Source: Blautia luti (GTDB lineage: Bacteria > Bacillota > Clostridia > Lachnospirales > Lachnospiraceae). Taken from it: DNA of 64,000 nucleotides. The notes beneath the pieces were generated by a model. The model did not search any database. It saw only the letters and a list, made by a program, of their open reading frames with translations, and had not been told where the DNA came from. The position numbers and the translations under genes are program-made. This document shows, piece after piece, positions 33,512 to 57,460 of the stretch. The DNA lies in assembly GCF_033096465.1 (NCBI RefSeq), contig NZ_AP028156.1, positions 1,692,501-1,756,500 on the forward strand. The letters are read 5' to 3'. Each line of letters starts with the position of its first letter. Position 1 is the first letter of the stretch.

Positions 33512-34391
33512 TCTGTCCTCCTTCAGTAATAGAATCCTGCTTATTTACAGTAATAACCAGGACATCCTTCAGATGCTGAAAATCCACAGGTGTAACAATT
33601 GTTCCTGTTTTTGTCAGGTTATTGCTATCCTGCTGAATATCACTTACATAACCGATAAAAAGGCCTTCCACATATTTTTCACTGATATTGGAAGTGACGA
33701 TACGTTCGCCTACTGTAACTTTATTATCCTGATCATATAACTGGCTGAAACTTAACTTTCCCTCATCAATCAGCTCCAGATCACCCTCAACCACACAATT
33801 ATCCTGAGTACTGACAGTCATAGCGCTGACATTGCTGCTGTCATCAATGATAGAACGTACGGTTGCCCAGTGTGTTCCCACTTCTGTGACAATTCCTACC
33901 AGACCTTTTCCTGCGATTACATTGTTATCCACACGGATCCCATCTGCAGAACCACGGTTGATCATAAAAGTATCATACCAGTTTCCCGGATCCTTGGAAA
34001 TGATCTCGGCAGCAACCTTCGGATATTCTGTATACTGCTGATCCAGATTATACATCTGCTGTAATCTCACAAGTTCTGTCTGATCCTGGATCAGTTTATT
34101 GTTCTGTTCTGTCAGACTGTCCACCTGAGCTTTCAGGTTTTCGTTTTCTACAAGTATTTCTTGCTTGTCTCTCATGCTGCTCTGGATTCCTGTAAGAACT
34201 GAACTGATATTGTTGATACTGTTCTCAAAAGGAACGATCAGGGCACCTGCCGCATCCTGTAACGGTGCAGTGGTAATTCCCGAAGCAAAAGTTGCTACAA
34301 TACAGCTGATGCAGAAAATAGTCATGATAGCCAGCAAATGTTTACTTTTTAAGTTTATTCTGAAACGTACTTTCTTTTTCAGGTTCTTCAT
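33501..34391 (-). CDS. mreC: Rod shape-determining protein MreC
   Basis: The protein is 296 residues: a short basic cytoplasmic tail, one membrane helix (about 17-37), a periplasm-side coiled coil (about 65-110, EILVENENLKAQVDSLTEQNN) and the beta-barrel MreC core (PGNWYDTFMINRGSADGI, GKGLVGIVTEVG). It links MreB filaments to the wall-synthesis enzymes encoded downstream. Confidence 0.95.
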   Translation of the reverse strand: MKNLKKKVRFRINLKSKHLLAIMTIFCISCIVATFASGITTAPLQDAAGALIVPFENSINNISSVLTGIQSSMRDKQEILVENENLKAQVDSLTEQNNKLIQDQTELVRLQQMYNLDQQYTEYPKVAAEIISKDPGNWYDTFMINRGSADGIRVDNNVIAGKGLVGIVTEVGTHWATVRSIIDDSSNVSAMTVSTQDNCVVEGDLELIDEGKLSFSQLYDQDNKVTVGERIVTSNISEKYVEGLFIGYVSDIQQDSNNLTKTGTIVTPVDFQHLKDVLVITVNKQDSITEGGQNEE

Positions 34392-46341: not shown

Positions 46342-47619
46342 TCAGGTTTCTGTTCCGTATTTTTGAATATACAGTTCGTATTCGTCATCTATATGTTCTT
46401 CTTCAATGTGTGTATAATAATTAGTCATTTTTTCATCAGAGTGTCCAGCTATTTTCTTTACTGTAGCGGCATCCATTCCCGATTGAATGCATCTTGTTAC
46501 AAAAGTATGACGGAAAATATGAGGATGAACATCCATTAAATTCGGATCTCTGTTCTCTTTTTCTGCCAGAGCAATTTCATGCTTATTAACAATCCCAACA
46601 ATCCGCCTGCATTCTGTTTGAGCTGATGATGGAAGATAACTTCTTCCTGAAGATGTTGTAAAAATCAGACCGGGATATTTTTTTAAAAGTATATTTGTTT
46701 TTCCCCAGTTTTTCCCCAGTTTTTCTTTATCACGATCCTGTTTTTCCTTCCAGCTCATAAAAGCAGCAATCACTGCATCCGTTAATGGAACCTTTCTATT
46801 GCTGGCACTTTTCTTTGGTGTTGTAATCTGAATAGTAGAATACCTTTCAGGAAGTTCATTTCCTTTCGAATCATAATATTTTGTAACTCTGTTTAAGGTT
46901 TTATATACACGAAGCTTTTCATGCTTAAAGTCAAGATCACACCATTCTAGGGCAAGTGCTTCCCCTATACGTAATCCTGTATGAAGAAGAATAAAAAAGA
47001 GTTCATAATACCGGGTATTCTTGCAGCTCTCAAGGAAACGATGAGTGTCATATATACTAAGACATTTTTCATCTTCTTGTTCCTGCATTATCTTCTCATC
47101 AGGTATTTCACCCGGTTCTTCTTTAGGCAGTTTAATATCGGCTACGGGATCTATGGGTATCATTTTTCCACCATATGCCTTTTTGAAAAGCTGACGGACT
47201 ACACTTAATGATTGTATTACCGTTGTACGTGCATATCCTTCTTCTTCGAGTCCCTTTATCATGTCAAGAATATGTGTTGGACGGACCTCTATTAACCTCA
47301 TGTAACCAATATATTCTCTTACTCGCTCAAAACCATTTACATAGTTACTTAAAGTGGTTGCTTTAACAGAATGCACCACATAAATAAGCATCCATTTTTC
47401 ATACCACTTTGAAACAGAAATTCTAGGATCATATCCTGCAATTCCGGGGGAAACATTAGCAAGGTAGGCATTTCTTTCTTTTTTTAGATGTTGTAAATTT
47501 GTACCATAAATTGAAAACGTTTTTCCTGTACCGCGAACGAAAATTCTGGCCTCATATCGTCCATCTTTTCTTTGATATAATCCTTTTCCTAATTCTTTAC
47601 CCTTTAAGTTTTTGCCCAT
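46342..47619 (-). CDS. int: Tyrosine integrase of an integrative element (Tn916 Int-like)
   Basis: The protein is 425 residues with an N-terminal arm-binding domain (RKDGRYEARIFVRG), a SAM-like core-binding domain and a catalytic domain: Arg in HTGLRIGEALALEW, Lys in NRKVPL, HIFRHTF, AGHSDEK and Tyr in NYYTHIEEE. The start at 47619 lies after AAAGGA; 12 more codons are open upstream. It is next to xis and faces mutS, the typical end arrangement of integrative and conjugative elements. Confidence 0.92.
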   Translation of the reverse strand: MGKNLKGKELGKGLYQRKDGRYEARIFVRGTGKTFSIYGTNLQHLKKERNAYLANVSPGIAGYDPRISVSKWYEKWMLIYVVHSVKATTLSNYVNGFERVREYIGYMRLIEVRPTHILDMIKGLEEEGYARTTVIQSLSVVRQLFKKAYGGKMIPIDPVADIKLPKEEPGEIPDEKIMQEQEDEKCLSIYDTHRFLESCKNTRYYELFFILLHTGLRIGEALALEWCDLDFKHEKLRVYKTLNRVTKYYDSKGNELPERYSTIQITTPKKSASNRKVPLTDAVIAAFMSWKEKQDRDKEKLGKNWGKTNILLKKYPGLIFTTSSGRSYLPSSAQTECRRIVGIVNKHEIALAEKENRDPNLMDVHPHIFRHTFVTRCIQSGMDAATVKKIAGHSDEKMTNYYTHIEEEHIDDEYELYIQKYGTET

Positions 47620-47689
47620 AACACCACCATCCTTTCTGATGATAATGCATGACACTGGATATATATTTTAGCACAACAAAAAAAAGCTT

Positions 47690-47887
47690 TCAAGACTGCC
47701 GATCTATCCATTTTTGAAATTTTTTCTTATCAATCAGTGTTCTGCGCCCAATCCGTACCATGAAACAGTTTTCATTCATCAATGATCTCATTGTTTTCTC
47801 AGAAAGTCCTGTAAGCTCACAGGCTTCTTTAACGGATATAAGAATTTTATCGTTATTTGCTTCCGGCTGTGTTTTTTTTCGCAACAT
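47690..47887 (-). CDS. xis: Excisionase (Tn916 Xis-like)
   Basis: A 65-residue MerR-like winged-helix protein: ILISVKEACELTGLSEKTMRSLMNE and VRIGRRTLIDKKKFQKWID are the typical excisionase segments. It would steer Int toward excision. The only good ribosome site, GAGGAGG, lies about 42 nt upstream of the ATG, separated by a hairpin, so translation may be controlled by RNA folding. Confidence 0.88.
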   Translation of the reverse strand: MLRKKTQPEANNDKILISVKEACELTGLSEKTMRSLMNENCFMVRIGRRTLIDKKKFQKWIDRQS

Positions 47888-47981: not shown

Positions 47982-49541
47982 TTAATCCAATGTTCTACGT
48001 TCCTGTTGGCTGACATAATACTCCACTGCTTCCTGTAAACTGCATCCGGCCCTATGGCTTCGACTTATTACACTGCTTTTATTTATTCCTAATTCCTCAC
48101 AGCATACTTTAAGCGATGGATAAACAGTTCCATGATATTCAAATTCCGGGTTACTTAACATTTTTTTCCTTTTTCTCGTCATAAAATGTGTAAACGATTC
48201 TTCAAGAGAACAATTCTTATCTCGTGCTCTTTGTCTCACACATATATCATCAATACCATATTTTTGACAACATGCCCGGAGACTTCGATATTCTATTCCT
48301 TTAAATGTAAATTTTTGTATTCTTTCGGCAATCATATCTTTATTTTCAATAAAATGCTCCAATGATTCTTCCATAGTACAATTCAATCTATATTTTCTTG
48401 AAGATACACTGTCAGCGTTGACTCCATATTCCAGACAGCATTCTTCCAAAGACCTATAGGTTTTGTCTCTAAAAATAAATACCGCCGGTTGTGTTTCCAT
48501 TCTGGCTTTCTTTATGAAATGATCCAAAGATTCTTCAATGCTGCATTCTGTTGTTTTGGCACGGTTACGCACACTGGAAGCATTAACGCCGTATTCAGCA
48601 CAACATGCTGAAACACTTTTATACCTTTTCCCTTTATAAAAGAATTGCATTTTCGGTGTTTCTGTTTCCTTTTTTTGAATATAATATTTCACAGCTTCTT
48701 CCCATGTACACTTTTTTCGCCAAGCTCTACTGCGTACACTAGATTCATTAATTCCATAGAATTCACAACATTGTCCAAGTGAGATATATTTATTTCCCTC
48801 ATAAAAAAAAGCCTCTTTCGCACGATGCCTTTCTTTAGACATCACCTGATTTTCAGGAATTTCTTCTTTTTTCGTTACTTCTTTTGGCATACAACCTTCC
48901 ATATGAGAGATAATTTCTTCCATAACATCCGCGTGAGGACGTTTCGCTTTAAATACTGCTGAACTTACTGACTTTGGCTTTAATCCATACGCAAGACAAC
49001 ATTCCGTAAAATTTTTGTATTCTTTTCCACGGAATTCAAAGGCTCTTTTCTCTTTAGATTTGATATAATGTGTAATCGCACGTGTAGAAGAAACCCCATT
49101 TTTTTCCATATACAAACGTACTGATATAGGATTTATCTCCAGGTCTTCACAACATTGAGGCAGTGATGGGTATTTCACACCATGATATGTGATTTCATGT
49201 GCCTTTTTCCATTCTATTGCCCGTTCAATCGCTTCCTGTGGTGTGCATTTTCGATTCCACATATCGGTCTTGACAGAATCTTCGTTTAAATCATAAAATT
49301 CGCAGCAGGTCTTAATGCTGGCCCATTTTCGATTTCGGAATATGATCTCTTTACTTTTTTTTAATTCAATAAAATGTGTAATCGCTTCTTCAGTTCTACA
49401 TTTATATTGATTCTGATATGCCATTACGCTACGGTAACATATTCCATAAAAATTACAGCATTTATGCTTACTTTCAAAAGTTCTGCCATTGTACACAAAT
49501 TTGAATTTCTCCATGTAATTTGATCTGATTTTACGTGGCAT
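47982..49541 (-). CDS. Protein of nine tandem CC-containing repeats
   Basis: The protein is 519 residues (start 49541, MPRKIRSNY, with GGAGG 12 nt upstream; 25 further codons are open but run into the upstream terminator). It is built of nine repeats of about 48-60 residues with the pattern F-x-Y/F-x-G-x-x-Y-x-S-L-x3-CC-x-x-YG-I/V-x4-SV-x-x-R, then C-S/T-x-EEA. All nine keep the CC pair. The central part reads like a small helix-turn-helix module, as in NUMOD-type DNA-binding modules of homing endonucleases, but no nuclease domain is present. A DNA-binding or regulatory role in the element is inferred. Confidence 0.75.
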   Translation of the reverse strand: MPRKIRSNYMEKFKFVYNGRTFESKHKCCNFYGICYRSVMAYQNQYKCRTEEAITHFIELKKSKEIIFRNRKWASIKTCCEFYDLNEDSVKTDMWNRKCTPQEAIERAIEWKKAHEITYHGVKYPSLPQCCEDLEINPISVRLYMEKNGVSSTRAITHYIKSKEKRAFEFRGKEYKNFTECCLAYGLKPKSVSSAVFKAKRPHADVMEEIISHMEGCMPKEVTKKEEIPENQVMSKERHRAKEAFFYEGNKYISLGQCCEFYGINESSVRSRAWRKKCTWEEAVKYYIQKKETETPKMQFFYKGKRYKSVSACCAEYGVNASSVRNRAKTTECSIEESLDHFIKKARMETQPAVFIFRDKTYRSLEECCLEYGVNADSVSSRKYRLNCTMEESLEHFIENKDMIAERIQKFTFKGIEYRSLRACCQKYGIDDICVRQRARDKNCSLEESFTHFMTRKRKKMLSNPEFEYHGTVYPSLKVCCEELGINKSSVISRSHRAGCSLQEAVEYYVSQQERRTLD

Positions 49542-49602
49542 AAAAACTTCTTTCCTCCTTTTATCGTGATTGGATCTGATACATGTCAAAACATTTTGCC
49601 AA

Positions 49603-49737
49603 ACAAAAAAAGACACTCCAAGAGTTCATTTTACTCTTTTTGTGTCTTTATCGGTTGATCCGCAGACGCGGTATAAAGTATAAAATTCTGACCTCGTATC
49701 AGAATAAAATTTGTGCGATCTGCCTTGCAAAATGTTC
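49603..49737 (-). ncRNA. Structured leader or small RNA A (promoter plus terminator)
   Basis: The predicted minus-strand transcript begins about 49737 and ends at a strong terminator. It contains TTTGC..GGCAG, a hairpin TTCTGA/TCAGAA, a small GC hairpin CCGC/GCGG and ATCAA before the terminator. Order and several short motifs are shared with the RNA at 57284-57425. It ends 62 nt before the nine-repeat gene, so it is either a free small RNA or an attenuating leader. Confidence 0.5.
49609..49649 (-). terminator. Terminator of RNA A
   Basis: On the minus strand AAAGACAC and AGAGT pair with ACTCT and GTGTCTTT around symmetrical internal mismatches, followed by TTTTTTTGTTT. The outer arms AAAGACAC/GTGTCTTT nearly match those of the terminator at 57290-57326. 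Confidence 0.82.
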
Positions 49738-49743
49738 AATTTT

Positions 49744-49772
49744 ATCGTATCATTCCAGATACTTAATGTCAA
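49744..49772 (-). promoter_or_regulatory. Promoter of RNA A
   Basis: On the minus strand: TTGACA (complement of 49767-49772), a 17-nt spacer and TACGAT (complement of 49744-49749). The promoter of RNA B has the same layout (TTGACG, 17 nt, TACCAT). Confidence 0.6.
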
Positions 49773-50179: not shown

Positions 50180-52369
50180 TTATGCGGCCTGTTCTTCCAG
50201 TTCTCGATTCCCAGCCTCCATTAAATCTTCCTCCAGAATTTCAGCAAGCAATTTGTTGCAATACCCAACACCGTTTACACGAACGCCTTTGCTGCGGAGC
50301 TCGTCAATCTCTTTTTTCCTGAGACTCTGACTTTTTACAGCCAGTTTATAATCTTCTTTTGCCAGTTTCTTTTTTAATTGTTTCTGCCATTTTACAAGAA
50401 AATCCCTTGCAAGCTCAATATCTTCATTCTGCTGGTTATAAAAAGTACGTGTCTGCCTTATGGTCCCATCCGGTTCCACTTCAAGCGTATAGTATGCCTC
50501 CGTTGGTTGTTCTGCCTTTCTCAAAAACAGGATATAGGATTCCTGCTGGCTCATTCGTTCATAATAGGTTTCTGTATTATTTACGCAGTGATGCATCAGT
50601 TTTGCTTCATACAAAATGTCATCCACTTTTTCCGGCACAACGATCTGATACTCTTTGTCCGCATATTCATATTTTTTCAAATCCCTGCATATACGATTCA
50701 GACCCGGATACTTCTTTTCCAGCTCTCCGGCTCTTAAAATCAAATCTTTTGCTTCTATCTCTTTTATCATTTCATTATGTCTCTGCATGAGCTTTCGTGC
50801 ACGGTAGATAACAGAATCCTGCACATTCACTCCGACCCGAATTGCCATATTAAGATAATCCTTCCATGTTTTGATCAGGTCTTTCACGGATTCCCCACTT
50901 TCTGCTGCCTGCTTTTCCAGATAATTTTTGATCTGTAAAGGGGCCATACGATCCATAATGAACATAAGATCCGCTGGTTTAAGCTTTTCCCGGCACATCC
51001 ACGAAATCACATCGTCACGGATCAACTTGTTTTGGGCTTTTTCAAGTAATAGCCATTGAAGAAAAATCTCTCCCCCATTGTTTGTACGCAGCCTTTTTAA
51101 GCGGAATCTATCAATTCCCAGTGCTTTTCCAAGGTCTCCGGAATCTTCACAATAGATCTGTGCTTTATTATCCATAATGTCTTCTGCGAGATGATAAAGT
51201 CCTGCTTTAATGAGCCGTTCCAGATAAGGTCTTTCTTTAACCAGTTCAAAAAAACTTACCGGATCTAAATACTTTTTGGTTTTTGCATATTCGTAGAATC
51301 CTGTCCTACGGAATGTCCTGTTTTTAATGCCATACAGTGATTTCCCATAAATATTTCCCATATTATATTTTTCATAGGTCATATAGCCACCGTAACCTGG
51401 ATACAGTGGAACCTGTAATTTACCCTGGATCCAGCGGTTTTCTTTTGTCCAATGATGACGGCCGAAATAATATTCTTTCGTATTTAATTCTTCATCATAC
51501 AGGATTCTCCGGCGCTCAAAGAAAGAATATACTGGTTTTTTATATGAGCTGCTTACTATGAGCATCTGAAGCTGGAATTCTCTCAAAACAAACACATTAT
51601 TTCCACAGGTCTGAAGCAGGTATGCAGTCTCTTTTTGGGTTTCTATATTTTTGGCCCGGCCTAATGCTTTATATTGAATCTGATGTCTGCATTTTGGACA
51701 ATTCCCCACTGCATTATGGTGAGGATGGCTGATTGGAACTTCGCTTTCACACCCACTACAATATCCTGTCTGATCTTTCCTGCGGCTGTAATGATAAAAG
51801 ATAAAATTCTGGGTAATTCCAACTTTTTTCTGCCATCTCAGCCAGTCTTTCGGAATTTTTGGAAGTCTATCCATACACTGATCCCAGCTTGTCAGAATTT
51901 TTTCATATTTCATGCCCAGCCTCCGGTGTCTCTGCTCACGTTGATATACATACAGTGCATAAAAAGCATCGTCATATTCACTTTCAAGATACTTTTGGAT
52001 CAACGCTGTATCCGCCTCTTTCATATAAGAATTTTCCTGATATAACCATTTTGAGAAAATGGTCTTATCCAGCATACTATCTGACCATTTCTTTGTCCGG
52101 TAATCATACCCTTTAAAAATATCGTTCTTTTTATCAATATATAATGTATATACAGGTTTCCGACAGTCCGTGGAAAGATATTCTGCCAGATAAAATGCTA
52201 CTTTTAAAATATTGTTTTCTACTTCTGCACGTAAATATAGCCCTCTCTGATAAATCAGCTGCTCCGTATAGTATCTTTTATCTCTTACTGGCACATCTTC
52301 TTTTGCAAGTTTTATCAGTTCATCCGTAGCTTCCAGCAATTTCATATTACGCAATTCTTTTTTATTCAT
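50180..52369 (-). CDS. PcfJ-like protein, copy 1
   Basis: The protein is 729 residues from MNKKELRN (GGAGAGG upstream). A zinc-ribbon-like segment near 210-240 has CSGCE and CPKCRH. The C-terminal PcfJ hallmark is DILYEAKLMHHCVNNTETYYERM, then YTLEVEPDGTIRQTRTFYNQQNEDI. PcfJ is encoded on conjugative elements such as pCF10; its function is not established. A second, clearly related copy lies directly upstream, so this is a tandem duplication that has diverged. Confidence 0.85.
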   Translation of the reverse strand: MNKKELRNMKLLEATDELIKLAKEDVPVRDKRYYTEQLIYQRGLYLRAEVENNILKVAFYLAEYLSTDCRKPVYTLYIDKKNDIFKGYDYRTKKWSDSMLDKTIFSKWLYQENSYMKEADTALIQKYLESEYDDAFYALYVYQREQRHRRLGMKYEKILTSWDQCMDRLPKIPKDWLRWQKKVGITQNFIFYHYSRRKDQTGYCSGCESEVPISHPHHNAVGNCPKCRHQIQYKALGRAKNIETQKETAYLLQTCGNNVFVLREFQLQMLIVSSSYKKPVYSFFERRRILYDEELNTKEYYFGRHHWTKENRWIQGKLQVPLYPGYGGYMTYEKYNMGNIYGKSLYGIKNRTFRRTGFYEYAKTKKYLDPVSFFELVKERPYLERLIKAGLYHLAEDIMDNKAQIYCEDSGDLGKALGIDRFRLKRLRTNNGGEIFLQWLLLEKAQNKLIRDDVISWMCREKLKPADLMFIMDRMAPLQIKNYLEKQAAESGESVKDLIKTWKDYLNMAIRVGVNVQDSVIYRARKLMQRHNEMIKEIEAKDLILRAGELEKKYPGLNRICRDLKKYEYADKEYQIVVPEKVDDILYEAKLMHHCVNNTETYYERMSQQESYILFLRKAEQPTEAYYTLEVEPDGTIRQTRTFYNQQNEDIELARDFLVKWQKQLKKKLAKEDYKLAVKSQSLRKKEIDELRSKGVRVNGVGYCNKLLAEILEEDLMEAGNRELEEQAA

Positions 52370-52471
52370 TTCCGTCCTCTCCTTCATTTTTTGCTGCATA
52401 TAATGTCATTTTCTCTTTTCTGCTCAAATGCAGCCGGGGAACTCCCTGCCGCATCCATTTTATTTTTTTAT

Positions 52472-54664
52472 TTACGCCGCTATTTCAGTAGGGCTTTCTT
52501 CGTTTTCTGCCGATTCCACTGGTAGGTCCATTAAATCTTTCTCTAAAAGATCAGCCAGAAGTTCCCCAGCAAATGTTCCGCCATGGACAACTACATGCTT
52601 ATCACGTATCTCCTGATAGTTCTGCCGCCTGAGCTTCCTGCTTTCTTCTGTGCTCTTACGATCTTTTTGGGTTAATCGTTTCTGAATTTCCTTCTGCCAC
52701 AATGTTAAAAAAGAAGTCACTTTATCAATGTCCTTATTTTGACGATTAAATTCCGCACGTTTTTGCCGGATAGTTCCATCTGGTTCAACTTCCAGTGTAT
52801 AAAACGGTACTTTCGGATTCTCTTTTTCCCGCAAAAACAGGATATAGCTTTCCTTTGAAACGATCCGGTCAAAATAAGTATCCGTTTTATTTACACAGTG
52901 ATGAAGCGTATCACCTTCATATAGGATGTCATCGATACTCTTTGGCGCAATAACCTGATATTCACCGTCACTGAACTCATATTTTTCTTTCAAATCAATG
53001 AGATGTTTCTGAAATCCGACATACTTTTCTTCCAGTTCCCTGCGTCGGATTCCGCGTTTCATTTCTTCTATCTTCAAAACCGCCTCTTTATGGCGCAGTT
53101 GAAGATCTCTGGTACGGTAAATAATGGAATCATGTATATCCATTCCCAGTCTTTTTGCCATAGAAAGATAATCGTTCCACACCTGCAGCACATGGCTGAT
53201 ATCATCCCCGGATTTTTCTGATTGTTTCACAAGATAATGTCGAATCTGGCAGATGCTCATCTGATCCAGAACAAACTTCAGGTCGTTTGGTTCAAATCCT
53301 TCTTTTACCATCCAGCATATTTCTTCATCCCCGATTGTTTTTCCTGTACTCTTTTCAAGTTGCAGCCATTTAAGTTCTTTTACCCCGCCATTCATATCTC
53401 GGAGTCTTCGAAACTCTTTCTTATCTACGGACAGGAATTCTGTTGGTTTTCTGCCTTTTCTTTTTATTGCATCTGCTGCCCTGTGGTCCAGTACATCATC
53501 AACTAACTGGAAAAGCCCCGCTTTTACAATCTGTTCCAGTACCGGGTATGTCTTCCACAGGTAAAGATATTTTCCCGGATCTATCTTTTTCTGACCAAGG
53601 GCGTACTCACGCAGACCTGTTTCTTTTAATTCATGCCTGGACAGATCCGACAGGGTATATGGATAAACCATTCCTTTATATTGACTGTCACAGCAAGTAT
53701 AATACCAAGAACTTCTACACGAAATCCAACGCATTTCCCGTTGTTTGAACAGATCATAAACGAAATTGGAAATTTCCTCTCCATTTGCAGAGAAGATTCT
53801 TCTCTGCTCTTCATGGCAGGTAGTTTCGCAATCTGTATAGCCGCCCTTTTTATACCACGTTCTGGCATGAAAGATCCGGAGCACAAAACCAGAAGTCTTG
53901 CGTCTCCTCTGGATAAGATAGACTCTGTACCACTTTGTACAAAATCTTCCAGACTTTCCCACAGAACGAAAAGTAATCGGTTGTCCACACACATTGCACT
54001 GTCCTTTCTGGTTATATTTGGGTGAGCGGATAGGAACATGTTTTTTGCAATGTGTACAGTATCCTTCTGTAGCACCATTTTTCTGATACTTGTAGAAGAT
54101 ATAGTGTTCCGTAATTCCATATTTTGAAACCCATCCGATCCAGTTCTTAGGCAGTCCAGATACAGTTTTCATCACCTGGTCCCATGAATCTGTAAGTTTT
54201 TTATCATGACGTATCCTTTGTTCTTTACGGATATTCGCCTGAAACTCTTCCAGTGCCCGGATTGCAGGCTGCATTGTCTTTAAATATTTTTGGATGACCT
54301 TTGTATCACAGTCATTTACATAGATGTTGCCAAGATTAATCCTTACATCCCATAAGATACTTTCAAGAAGTGCCTTTCTCCATTTTTTTAATTTTTCATC
54401 ATAGGTTATAAACCGTCTCTCTTTTCTGCTGATAAACAGACGGTACCTTGGAAAGTTTATATTCTTCTCAATATCCGTTACGGCAAACAGATACACTTTT
54501 AAAATTCCTTTTTCTACTGCTGCCCGACAATACATCCGATATTTTCCGGGTTCACCCCTTTGTTTCTCCAGTGTACTCAAAGATATTTCCGTTTTCTTTG
54601 CATCGGCGATATGTCTGTTCATCACTTTTAATGGTTTTAACTCCATCAACCTCTTTTTTCTCAT
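52472..54664 (-). CDS. PcfJ-like protein, copy 2
   Basis: The product is 730 residues with the same layout as its neighbour: zinc-ribbon-like CTHCKKH and CNVCGQ near 200-235, then the PcfJ C-terminal region DILYEGDTLHHCVNKTDTYFDRI and YTLEVEPDGTIRQKRAEFNRQNKDI. Its ATG overlaps the stop of the upstream gene (ATGA), showing coupling. The two copies share most motif positions but differ widely elsewhere, arguing for an old duplication. Confidence 0.85.
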   Translation of the reverse strand: MRKKRLMELKPLKVMNRHIADAKKTEISLSTLEKQRGEPGKYRMYCRAAVEKGILKVYLFAVTDIEKNINFPRYRLFISRKERRFITYDEKLKKWRKALLESILWDVRINLGNIYVNDCDTKVIQKYLKTMQPAIRALEEFQANIRKEQRIRHDKKLTDSWDQVMKTVSGLPKNWIGWVSKYGITEHYIFYKYQKNGATEGYCTHCKKHVPIRSPKYNQKGQCNVCGQPITFRSVGKSGRFCTKWYRVYLIQRRRKTSGFVLRIFHARTWYKKGGYTDCETTCHEEQRRIFSANGEEISNFVYDLFKQREMRWISCRSSWYYTCCDSQYKGMVYPYTLSDLSRHELKETGLREYALGQKKIDPGKYLYLWKTYPVLEQIVKAGLFQLVDDVLDHRAADAIKRKGRKPTEFLSVDKKEFRRLRDMNGGVKELKWLQLEKSTGKTIGDEEICWMVKEGFEPNDLKFVLDQMSICQIRHYLVKQSEKSGDDISHVLQVWNDYLSMAKRLGMDIHDSIIYRTRDLQLRHKEAVLKIEEMKRGIRRRELEEKYVGFQKHLIDLKEKYEFSDGEYQVIAPKSIDDILYEGDTLHHCVNKTDTYFDRIVSKESYILFLREKENPKVPFYTLEVEPDGTIRQKRAEFNRQNKDIDKVTSFLTLWQKEIQKRLTQKDRKSTEESRKLRRQNYQEIRDKHVVVHGGTFAGELLADLLEKDLMDLPVESAENEESPTEIAA

Positions 54665-55203
54665 AACTCCACCAGCTTTCCAGTCACATCAATCCATGCT
54701 TCCTCCGGATATTTCTGACCATCGATACAGATGACCCCAATTTCCAGGATCTGGCTGTTGCCAGGCTGCTCCTTTAAAAGTAACAGTAAATCGCCCTTTT
54801 GTCCTTTGGCTTTGGGGGATTTTCCACGTACAATACAAAATCCGTTGCAGCTGGTCCCGCTTTCTTTTGCAACATGGGAGTTCCATTTCCGGTTTGGATA
54901 TTTCGACATGTAAGCAGCTCCGTGTAATAACAGGCTTCTCAATTCAATTTTCTTTAACAGGCGCATCTTTGTGCAGGAGATTTTTGAATCTTCTCCATCT
55001 TCATCCAAATCCCCTGATGCATCTACTATGTAATACACGGAATTTTTCCAATTCGGATAATAGCAGAGACAATCCAGTGGGTTTTCTGCACAATGAAATC
55101 CATTTTGTCTACAGTTTGCTTTTTCCGTTTCATTTATGCCATACTCCTGAAACTGAAAGCCCCGACATTTCAAATCCTTTTGAAATCCTTTATATGCGAT
55201 CAT
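54661..55203 (-). CDS. Element-associated protein resembling DUF7666
   Basis: The protein is 180 residues from MIAYKGFQKDLKCRGF (AAGGAG 6 nt upstream). Conserved-looking features are the N-terminal YKGF, QFQEYG, GFHCAENPLDCLCYYP and the later YIVDASGDLDEDGEDSKISCTKMRLLKKI. This pattern is seen in phage and element proteins called DUF7666. The GFHCAENP segment recurs in such proteins, but no activity is known. It is coupled to the second PcfJ copy. Confidence 0.6.
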   Translation of the reverse strand: MIAYKGFQKDLKCRGFQFQEYGINETEKANCRQNGFHCAENPLDCLCYYPNWKNSVYYIVDASGDLDEDGEDSKISCTKMRLLKKIELRSLLLHGAAYMSKYPNRKWNSHVAKESGTSCNGFCIVRGKSPKAKGQKGDLLLLLKEQPGNSQILEIGVICIDGQKYPEEAWIDVTGKLVEL

Positions 55204-55214
55204 ATCTTTCTCCT

Positions 55215-55934
55215 TCAACTCTCTTTCGGCTGCATCATGTCAAACAAGGACATCTGCCCGGAATCTTTTGATTTTTTCCTGCTGATATGCTTTTCTTCCT
55301 GCTCCGCTGCTTCTTTGGGATGCACCTCGGAATCTTTCTTTGTCCCCTGGTTTTTCGGTATTGTTTTCGTTCTCTTATTTACCGAATCCCATTCCTTTTG
55401 AATCTTTTTCTTTTCTTCCTGCTCTTTTTCTGCTATTTCTTTTTCATCATCTTTCGCATAATATTCAAGTACCCAGGGAAAAACCTGGTCGTCGGAGAGT
55501 GCCAGGCCTGTATTGGCCCGAATGCCGTTCTCTCCCTTTTTTTTCGCTTCCTCCAGTGCAATGTTATAGGCTTTTTGCGTCACGTAATCCAAACATCTCT
55601 GAAGCATCTTATGTTTTTTTAACACCTGTGCATCTAAAGCAGAATCCGTTTTGGCAAGATTTACGAGATACTGTCCTATGATGTCTGCAAAGCCTGCATC
55701 CTTTAAGGCAAACATTTCTGCACGCAGTTTTTCAGACGCATTCGCAAACTTTCTTTCCTCAATCGGTATATCAACCAGCCGGTAGCGGCTGCCTTGAATA
55801 AATTCCTCTGTCTGTTTTTTGGAAACTGCATGTGCTTTGGCAAGTTCCCGCACACCATCCATATTCCCGCTCTGGCGGTAATACAATGCTGCTGTATTTA
55901 ATTCTTCTGCAGTTTTTATGATCTCATTTAACAT
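55215..55934 (-). CDS. PcfK/AcrIIA9-like protein
   Basis: The protein is 239 residues from MLNEIIKTAEEL. The central part KMLQRCLDYVTQKAYNIALEEAKKKG, then LALSDDQVFPWVLEYYAKDDEKE, fits the PcfK-like family (a CLDYV-type helix, then a V/I-x-W-x-x-YY-x-DD motif). A highly charged tail ends QMSLFDMM. PcfK-like proteins include AcrIIA9, an inhibitor of type II-A Cas9, so an anti-CRISPR role is possible but not shown. It is close to PcfJ genes, as on conjugative elements. Confidence 0.62.
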   Translation of the reverse strand: MLNEIIKTAEELNTAALYYRQSGNMDGVRELAKAHAVSKKQTEEFIQGSRYRLVDIPIEERKFANASEKLRAEMFALKDAGFADIIGQYLVNLAKTDSALDAQVLKKHKMLQRCLDYVTQKAYNIALEEAKKKGENGIRANTGLALSDDQVFPWVLEYYAKDDEKEIAEKEQEEKKKIQKEWDSVNKRTKTIPKNQGTKKDSEVHPKEAAEQEEKHISRKKSKDSGQMSLFDMMQPKES

Positions 55935-56001
55935 AATCGGTCCCTTCTTTCCTGATAAAAACATGAGGCAGAAGAAAAAATCTCCTGCCTCTGCCTGCTT
56001 T

Positions 56002-56415
56002 TTATGCCGCATTCATTTTCTGTTCAGCCGCTTCCATTTCTTTTTCTACTTCCAATGCAATCCTGCGTCTCTCTGCATCATCAGAATCCAAAAGGCTGAT
56101 CATTTCCAGTACAATACGGCGAACCCATTCATTTTCCTCCCATCCTGCACAGATCTGACGGGCTTTTTCCGTCAGTTCCTTCCAGTCAGCATCTTCCAGA
56201 TCCCTGCCACGATATTCTTTATAGAAAGAATAAATTTCTTTCATGGCTTTCGGTGCCTGAATCTTTGCCGCTTCATCCAAATTGGAGAGGAGTCCCATCA
56301 GCATGGGATGGTTTTTATATTTTTCAATCAAAGGACGGATACCGGTCTGAATTTTACCCGTATAAAGTCCTAAAAAATCATTAAATATTCCTGCAATCAA
56401 TTTCTGATCTGTCAT
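56002..56415 (-). CDS. Element protein of unknown function (137 residues)
   Basis: A soluble, helical, acidic protein. AAGGAAGGA lies before the ATG, and the start overlaps the upstream gene by 35 nt. Features are MTDQKLIAGIFNDFL, YKNHPMLMGLLSNLDEAAK and a Glu/Ala-rich C-terminal helix. I do not recognise the family. Position suggests an accessory role together with the PcfK-like protein that follows. Confidence 0.65.
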   Translation of the reverse strand: MTDQKLIAGIFNDFLGLYTGKIQTGIRPLIEKYKNHPMLMGLLSNLDEAAKIQAPKAMKEIYSFYKEYRGRDLEDADWKELTEKARQICAGWEENEWVRRIVLEMISLLDSDDAERRRIALEVEKEMEAAEQKMNAA

Positions 56416-56716
56416 TCGTTTCCTTCCTTTCTGTTAATTTTCTTACTCTGCGCCTGACCGTAGATGGAAAACACTGAAATGCTTCCGATACTGCATCCTG
56501 GCTGTATCCCTGATCAAGAAGAGCCTTCATAGCCGCTGCCATTTCTGATTCCTTGAGCTTTTTTATGGACGGTTTCCGAACTTTCTTTTTCAGTATTTTC
56601 CGGCAAAGCGGATGATCTGGTCCGTATTCGTACATTGTGCTGGCTTCCGCTGCATTCAAATTGCACAGGATTGCAATCAGCAGACAGTAATATCCCTTAT
56701 ATTCGTCGTCTTTCAT
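56381..56716 (-). CDS. Small element protein with helix-turn-helix-like C-terminal part
   Basis: The product is 111 residues. The N-terminal half (YYCLLIAILCNLNAAEASTM) is hydrophobic-helical. The second half has a basic stretch (KKKVRKPSIKKLK) and DQGYSQDAVSEAFQCFPSTVRRRVRKL, which looks like a helix-turn-helix of the resolvase/sigma region 4 kind. A DNA-binding role is inferred from this pattern only. Confidence 0.6.
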   Translation of the reverse strand: MKDDEYKGYYCLLIAILCNLNAAEASTMYEYGPDHPLCRKILKKKVRKPSIKKLKESEMAAAMKALLDQGYSQDAVSEAFQCFPSTVRRRVRKLTERKETNDRSEIDCRNI

Positions 56717-56761
56717 GCCGCACCACCTTTATTGCCTGGTTTTTAAATGTACATCTTTACT

Positions 56762-57181
56762 CTAATCTGCTTTAAATTCTTTTTGATCAAGACCATTTTC
56801 GAGCAGATATCTTTCCGTACCTTCTGGATCGAGCTGTGCAAGTCGTGCAAGATTAAACTCTACGACATAATAGCTGCCATAATTGATTTTCCTCTTACCT
56901 ATAACTTTTCCGAGTTTATACTTTTCAATAAACGCAACCTTTGCTTTTGCTCCGCAATCCGAGATTATTGCCTGCCCTGGCCTTAGGAATCCCATAACTC
57001 CAATTGTAAGATCTCCGAATAATTCCAGCTTTTCCTCACATTCCTTTTGCTCTTGCCATAATCCGATATACAGGGATCCGTTGTAGTACATATTCACTCT
57101 GACATATAATTCCTCATGTCCACATTCCCAGTCATATCCCAATGGTTTTTCATCTTTTCGAATGCATATAGCCTGTCCCAT
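56762..57181 (-). CDS. Element-associated protein resembling DUF4313
   Basis: The protein is 139 residues with an excellent ribosome site (AAAAAAGGAGG). The pattern YVRVNMYYNGSLYIGLW, FGDLTIGVMGF, AFIEKYKLGKVIGKR and a final acidic helix recalls the small DUF4313 proteins of conjugative elements. The first gene after leader RNA B, it probably opens the element operon running to the PcfJ genes. Confidence 0.6.
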   Translation of the reverse strand: MGQAICIRKDEKPLGYDWECGHEELYVRVNMYYNGSLYIGLWQEQKECEEKLELFGDLTIGVMGFLRPGQAIISDCGAKAKVAFIEKYKLGKVIGKRKINYGSYYVVEFNLARLAQLDPEGTERYLLENGLDQKEFKAD

Positions 57182-57283: not shown

Positions 57284-57425
57284 CAAAAAAAGACACCAAA
57301 AATCTTCTTTTGATTTTTGATGTCTTCCTATTGATAAAAGGCCTTCGCCTAAATGTTGCTCCCGGAACAGCATATCCGGAACAAAAAACTTTGCTGCGTG
57401 GCAAACCATGCATAAAAAATAATCC
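57284..57425 (-). ncRNA. Structured leader or small RNA B (promoter plus terminator)
   Basis: The minus-strand RNA of about 140 nt has the same plan as the RNA at 49603-49737: TTTGCCACGCAG, an imperfect hairpin with CCGGATATGC, a small AGGC/GCCT hairpin, ATCAA, then a strong terminator with AAGACA/TGTCTT arms. It ends about 100 nt before the gene at 57181. No known Rfam class was recognised. Confidence 0.5.
57290..57326 (-). terminator. Terminator of RNA B
   Basis: A 15-bp continuous stem with one G-T pair (57290-57304 with 57312-57326) is followed on the minus strand by TTTTTTTGTTG. Confidence 0.85.
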
Positions 57426-57431
57426 ATTTAT

Positions 57432-57460
57432 ATGGTAACACAATATATTGAATTCGTCAA
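57432..57460 (-). promoter_or_regulatory. Promoter of RNA B
   Basis: On the minus strand: TTGACG (complement of 57455-57460), a 17-nt spacer and TACCAT (complement of 57432-57437). Confidence 0.55.

Follow-up and report, generated by a model that had tools for sequence, protein, structure and literature searches.

Comparative analysis of the window, that is, the complete 64,000-nucleotide stretch of Blautia luti DNA, supports the existence of a structured RNA family outside Rfam, with covarying stems in many elements, which is represented in the window by two units, denoted A and B. In this family, a TTGACA-17-TAnnnT promoter is followed by a conserved hairpin, usually by a second hairpin, and by an intrinsic terminator located just ahead of an operon. 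Judging from its presence at five gene blocks of one giant integrative element, the leader looks like a shared switch that decides whether each block is read. It would act in cis and terminate by default, the most likely route past its terminator being an RNA-based antitermination similar to that of put, canT or conAn2, a reading to which we assign roughly an even chance. As far as the literature that we searched goes, the silencing and subsequent joint opening of excision, recombination and transfer in the giant elements (well over 100 kb) of gut Clostridia have not been described; a leader shared by each core operon would be a concrete answer to the question of joint opening and would provide a sequence by which such elements could be recognized. 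It might also add a new RNA antiterminator to the few that are known.

Units A and B in the window

Unit A occupies positions 49772-49603 of the minus strand. Its promoter, TTGACA-17-TACGAT with a TG ahead of the -10 box (49744-49772), matches the consensus at 10 of 12 positions, and its spacer lacks the dyad typical of the family. In the leader of about 133 nt that lies between the promoter and the following gene, hairpin 2 (TTCTGA/TCAGAA, 49686-49704), a compensated form of TTCCGG/CCGGAA, and hairpin 3 (CCGC GTCT GCGG, 49660-49671), both identified from the sequence and the predicted fold, precede an intrinsic terminator with the arms AAAGACAC...GTGTCTTTTTTT (49605-49649; stem-loop at 49649-49609, T-run to 49605). 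The ATG of the gene for a 519-aa repeat protein is at 49541, about 62 nt beyond the terminator, so that both the minus-strand promoter and the terminator 62 nt before the repeat gene that were given in the preliminary description hold. Unit B displays, as had also been proposed, the same promoter layout (TTGACG-17-TACCAT, 57432-57460, minus strand), with 9 of 12 consensus matches and with the dyad CAATATATTG in the spacer. Its fold includes hairpin 2 (TTCCGG/CCGGGA, 57360-57381) and hairpin 3 (AGGC GAAG GCCT, 57339-57350), and the terminator with its T-run (57284-57329) is delineated by sequence, fold and the alignment of relatives. The near-identity of the outer terminator arms of A and B was correctly recognized, and these arms (AAGACA...TGTCTTTTTTT) recur in most relatives, with the C-type units differing; of the shared motif order that had been described, 'TTTGC..GCAG' and 'ATCAA' are loosely common to A and B but are not family-wide.

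The predicted folding energies are -34.1 kcal/mol for A (z of -3.15) and -46.1 kcal/mol for B (z of -4.63), values that none of 200 shuffles equaled in either case. The region shows no enrichment of promoter-like strings as such (46, with 40.6 expected from shuffles), so the promoters of A and B count only together with the conserved leader, and the case rests on comparison. A scan of the window and of both units detected no Rfam 15 family at the gathering score over the units, the only matches being weak chance ones (best score over B 21.7 bits, with a cut-off of 88); together with the covarying stems found in many elements, this bears out the suggestion of a new class of regulatory RNA.

Relatives and conservation of the leader

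Searches with blastn using A or B returned short pieces, most of them chance matches; in the search with B against 299 genomes of the family, some came from full units elsewhere. The pieces from the B search had GTTCCGG...CCGGAAG in common, and it is through this hairpin pattern that the relatives were found. The pattern is present in 16 of 397 family genomes, with 19 matches compared to 2 for the reversed pattern, and inspection by eye identified full units at 7 of the 19. When the pattern was combined with an upstream TTGAC, a scan of 84,980 species yielded 59 loci, 30 of which contained 31 units that passed a filter for a -10 box at a spacer of exactly 17 and for a terminator, both criteria lying outside the scan pattern. 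Three loci (L121, L134, L148) have the -10 box and failed the terminator rule; nonetheless, L121 and L148 score 58.2 and 53.5 bits with the model. The filtered loci are labelled Lachnospiraceae or other Clostridia, except for an 'uncultured bacterium' (L146) and 'Bacterium D16-56' (L152). Among 83 viral loci there was no full unit: TTGAC precedes the hairpin in 37, a -10 box at spacer 17 is found in 2 of these 37, and a terminator in none. Across the order, model matches at E 1e-4 were confined to 2 of 196 genomes, each belonging to the genus of the window; in the family, 13 of 150 genomes together gave 29 matches at E 0.01, several of them due to chance, and five of the loci (L209, L210, L211, L213, L214) were left out of the inspection of these matches.

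Family membership was assessed with a held-out covariance model (R2) built from 20 relatives, with A and B excluded. In the window, the best match of this model is B, with 85.6 bits (E 2e-14), followed by A, with 27.3 bits (E 0.003; 49602-49754, minus strand), and by a match with 20.6 bits; A is accordingly a diverged member of the family. Model R1, whose training set included A, covers 49602-49742 of the same strand. Further support for the membership of A comes from G028, another genome with such an element, whose xis-int block also has a unit (L243:5681-5832; 54.8 bits, E 1e-7). Units C, D and E of the own genome, which were absent from the training of both models, receive 46, 80.3 and 76.9 bits from the held-out one. 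The models begin downstream of the -10 box, which makes the promoter an independent check: a promoter with at least 9 of 12 matches and spacer 17 lies just upstream of 12 of the 19 hits found without a promoter criterion, compared with 0.97 on average and never more than 5 across 1000 shuffles. The 19 are the 24 inspected hits minus A, B and three that were found via the promoter region (L121, L148, L025). One of the 12 promoter-bearing hits (L212) is devoid of hairpin 2, L220 has a promoter with 8 of 12 matches, and six hits (L206 on both strands, L207, L208, L224 and the second match in L215) have neither promoter nor hairpin. The preliminary description had proposed a covariance-model search and had named a lack of compensatory base changes as grounds for abandoning the idea; the held-out model retrieves both B and A, and compensations are present.

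The statistics for the dyad, pairing, hairpins and gene distance refer to 32 distinct units among 45 (the 46 collected, less L121, which was left out because of its terminator). The leader is about 130-180 nt long in the family and its 5' hairpin is variable. The usual arms of hairpin 2 are TTTGTTCCGG...CCGGAAGnnAAnTTT, in the context GTTCCGG...CCGGAAG, and all six pairs are formed in 14 distinct units chosen independently of the hairpin 2 sequence, whereas shuffled partners pair at 0.89 on average and none of 5000 shuffles reaches 1.0, a figure that is flattered by the picking of the arms as the best local stem. The stem variants TTCTGA/TCAGAA, TTCCGA/TCGGAA, TTTTGG/CCAAAA, GCTCTG/CAGAGT and TTCTGC/GCAGAA read as clear compensations. 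Of the 18 pairs of the terminator, which is predicted to form with a mean probability of 0.98, 11 have changed on both sides with pairing kept. For hairpin 3, the mean z is -1.33 over the 32 units, several of which have a weak one or none, and a helix closing around the terminator barely exceeds permuted partners, with 31 of 2000 permutations as good. In MAFFT alignments of small sets, hairpin 2 of A and L023 is misaligned.

Between the -35 and -10 boxes, the consensus ACnATATATnGTG is present at 7 or more of 9 positions in 27 of the 32 distinct units, and the best dyad center scores 0.63, with 0.48 for the next. Such a putative site would suit a shared DNA-binding regulator. The dyad is absent from five units (L135, A, E (L192), L220 and L226), of which A, L220 and L226 precede xis-int or integrase-like genes in three elements and have kept hairpin 2. 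This loss of the dyad with retention of hairpin 2 in A-type units makes the leader RNA the common part and favors the RNA. An Xre gene beside unit E was considered as the source of the dyad-binding protein and set aside: a relative (42% identical) is found beside the Hungatella units, but G028 and most of the scanned loci have none in the DNA examined.

Five blocks of a giant integrative element

When A and B are included in the model, it detects five units in the own genome, each on the minus strand and with an E-value of 1.4e-5 or below: A at 1742102, B at 1749782, C at 1795530, D at 1843019 and E at 1922644. They extend across 180 kb of chromosome, at the heads of blocks of one giant integrative element that, according to the gene list, reaches from an integrase adjoining the host mutS gene to at least ~1926 kb; the two copies per element originally described are thus at least five, each ahead of a gene block. 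Block A, on the minus strand of the window like block B, begins directly after unit A with the 519-aa repeat protein (47982-49541), in which NUMOD-like repeats and no nuclease domain were found, followed by an excisionase-like gene (HTH_17, Tn916-Xis; 47690-47887) and by the tyrosine integrase that adjoins mutS (46342-47655). Block B (50180-57181) encodes DUF4313, two small proteins, PcfK, DUF7666 and two PcfJ proteins. The remaining blocks, also on the minus strand, follow their units: block C with SSB and RecD2; block D with a 43-aa gene, an unnamed 370-aa protein, ERF and a primase-like zinc ribbon; and block E, the conjugation block, with a 73-aa gene and then a transglycosylase, a TraG P-loop ATPase and a T4SS coupling protein. 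For two of the block D proteins, the labels 'DUF932-like' and 'RecT-like' were discarded, Pfam giving no domain and ERF, respectively.

In G028, units are found at the same five block types, and the proteins are 31-73% identical to those of the own element. G025 also has five units, three of them at the D, C and B blocks and one ahead of an integrase-like gene. The A-type unit of G028 precedes a PcfJ gene, with no counterpart of the 519-aa repeat protein. In L244 (G028:C8:33357-33389 and 33515-33544, minus strand), a C-type terminator is followed by a second CATTTAGAATGA terminator copy and then by the SSB gene. At L125, the 146-aa product of the gene heading the operon carries a bacterial CdiA-CT RNase A-like domain (PF18431), and the first gene at L099 is similar.

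A different promoter-leader-terminator unit lies directly before conjugation genes at L234:4850-5200 (own genome 1920850-1921200, minus strand), at G028:C15:45380-45720 and in L113. It consists of TTGACA-17-TAYAAT, AAARTTYTRTGCATG...CATG..GGAGRGCCAYA, a terminator and a ribosome site; of 387 family genomes, three (own, G028, G204) contain the pattern, with none in the control, and the unit has no Rfam match. Near the element, an ordinary PreQ1 riboswitch (54.9 bits) is located at L234:16081-16125 on the plus strand.

Proposed read-through of the leader and its alternatives

In the reading that we favor, the promoter would start the leader and, in most units, the dyad between -35 and -10 may take a shared regulator. 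The RNA would fold into the variable 5' hairpin, hairpin 2, usually hairpin 3 and the terminator, placed a short distance ahead of the first gene; transcription would halt at this terminator by default, stray transcription from upstream would be stopped there as well, and the operon would be expressed once the polymerase passes it. Read-through would be driven by the leader RNA, with hairpins 1 and 2 acting on the polymerase as put does or with an RNA-binding protein landing there, rather than by an antiterminator hairpin that competes with the terminator. With the leader repeated on five operons, a single signal could open excision, recombination/replication and conjugation together. The anatomy, the family, the covariation, the position at operon heads and the matching five-unit sets of two elements can be read directly from the DNA, and from there we infer the transcript, its default termination, its antitermination by RNA, a trans factor and the signal.

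A start codon with a ribosome site is located 20-51 nt beyond the T-run in 13 of the 32 distinct units, and a promoter-like string intervenes in none of the 13, which supports the attenuating leader of the preliminary description in the form of a cis leader that would need terminator read-through. The distance test found no near start codon in the other 19, so a separate promoter is possible there. The units examined provided no clear evidence of processive antitermination: a terminator internal to block E, taken as a sign of processivity, belongs to a separate promoter-leader-terminator unit, and that argument was withdrawn.

A leader with a terminator ahead of a gene and a conserved hairpin before that terminator is what a classical attenuator or riboswitch would look like, with a ligand or protein shifting the pairing between antiterminator and terminator. 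Yet the leader offers the 5' arm of the terminator no better pairing than simple-shuffled leaders do (mean z of +0.41), and it is common to five unrelated gene blocks, unlike a metabolite switch, so we consider this quite improbable. With no antiterminator partner and a terminator that likely forms, what is left is a leader that acts on the polymerase or binds a protein, leaky insulation, or a factor loaded at the promoter. Insulation, in which the terminator would block stray upstream transcription, the operon would live on leaky read-through and the hairpins would serve some minor function, for example RNA stability, appears unlikely: it fits the high predicted probability of terminator formation and has a precedent in the insulating terminator of Tn916 (excerpts of PMC11658703), but the conservation of hairpin 2 in sequence and structure far exceeds the needs of an insulator. 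We count against our preferred explanation that a leaky insulating terminator would look similar, that several units have a weak hairpin 3 or none, and that A reaches only E 0.003 with the held-out model. To much the same limited degree, we can envisage a protein of the lambda Q or AlpA type that binds at the -35/-10 site, loads onto the polymerase and passes the leader terminator, the short RNA being akin to lambda 6S RNA; the spacer consensus in 27 of 32 units would suit it, and AlpA has the same layout of a -35/-10 site followed by a terminator near the start (PMC7969949). Such a protein requires its site in every target promoter, whereas the site is missing from 5 of 32, including the A-type units of three elements that retain the leader RNA; it also leaves hairpin 2 unexplained, and a plain repressor would need the dyad too.

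A short RNA bounded by a promoter and a terminator could also act in trans, as in the pair of small RNAs initially proposed. This we find very doubtful, because wherever context was examined the units, at least five in the own element, lie on the same strand ahead of a gene block, because the gap to a near start codon is short and free of promoter-like strings in all 13 of the 32 units in which the distance test found such a codon, and because inspection by eye revealed no conserved exposed segment in hairpin loops or linkers. The NTG found about 5 nt past the -10 box in most units might hint at leader peptide control; however, several units have a stop directly behind the second codon of this frame (GTG AAT TAA in L103), others have a long frame, and no conserved peptide is seen by eye, so that this explanation is highly implausible, and a leaderless leader peptide was dropped for want of a conserved frame.

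The put RNA of phage HK022 is present in more than one copy per element. Like the leader described here, it is a short structured 5' RNA of an early operon, and its presumed target, reached in cis, is the polymerase (PMC9378689); the leader differs from put in sequence and host phylum and in ending with its own terminator directly before the gene, and its activity is putative. Tn916, a Gram-positive integrative conjugative element, likewise combines a cis RNA antiterminator, canT, with insulating terminators; going by the description in PMC11658703, canT is 452 bp long (about 341-452 nt of defining sequence), occurs once per element and is far from T1, whereas the present leader is 130-180 nt long, is repeated at least five times per element and has its terminator attached. 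In pLS20, too, an RNA (conAn2) at the start of the conjugation operon is followed by terminators and has a protein partner; again going by description, in excerpts of PMC8955417, this is one system on one operon, with ConAn1. AlpA of Pseudomonas aeruginosa and lambda Q share with the present units the -35/-10 site, the terminator near the start and the control of more than one operon, but the AlpA site, GGGACGN5GGTA, is not a palindrome (PMC7969949), and here it is the leader RNA that is conserved while the spacer site is sometimes lost. Our literature searches, directed at leader RNAs and antitermination in elements of this kind and at the protein families of the element, with most subscription journals outside their coverage, found no description of the leader.

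A more specific and rather unlikely version of RNA-based read-through would be element-wide licensing, in which one RNA antiterminator on at least five operons of the giant conjugative element is read by an element-encoded RNA-binding protein. The candidates are a cold-shock-domain protein (PF00313; own genome 1843378-1843605, minus strand) encoded just upstream of the D-type unit and, in the same block, an S1-domain protein (PF00575; 1846158-1847282, minus strand) that is 75-80% identical in relatives; their link to the leader is a guess. B. subtilis CspB prefers d(GTCTTTG/C) (excerpts of PMC7825780), a consensus that the conserved TGTCTTTTTTT strand of the terminator resembles, so the protein of the element could hold this strand single and keep the terminator open. 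The cold-shock proteins of B. subtilis alter read-through, mostly in favor of termination (excerpts of PMC8307031), which speaks against such a protein as a simple antiterminator. Of the 31 scanned units, 10 have a cold-shock gene 117-266 nt upstream; nine of these are D-type, and for the tenth the downstream DNA is too short to assign a type. The own element and those of G028 and G025 likewise carry such a gene close to their D unit. None is present in the examined DNA of the other 21 scanned units, some with more than 4 kb upstream. A LoaP or NusG-paralogue route found no candidate, since the element has no NusG-family gene and the two NusG matches of the own genome (1525235, 3556082) are outside it. 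Shortly before the S1-domain gene, at L230:11199-11367 (own genome 1847199-1847367, minus strand), there is a TTGACA-17-TAGAAT promoter with a terminator and without the hairpin 2 leader.
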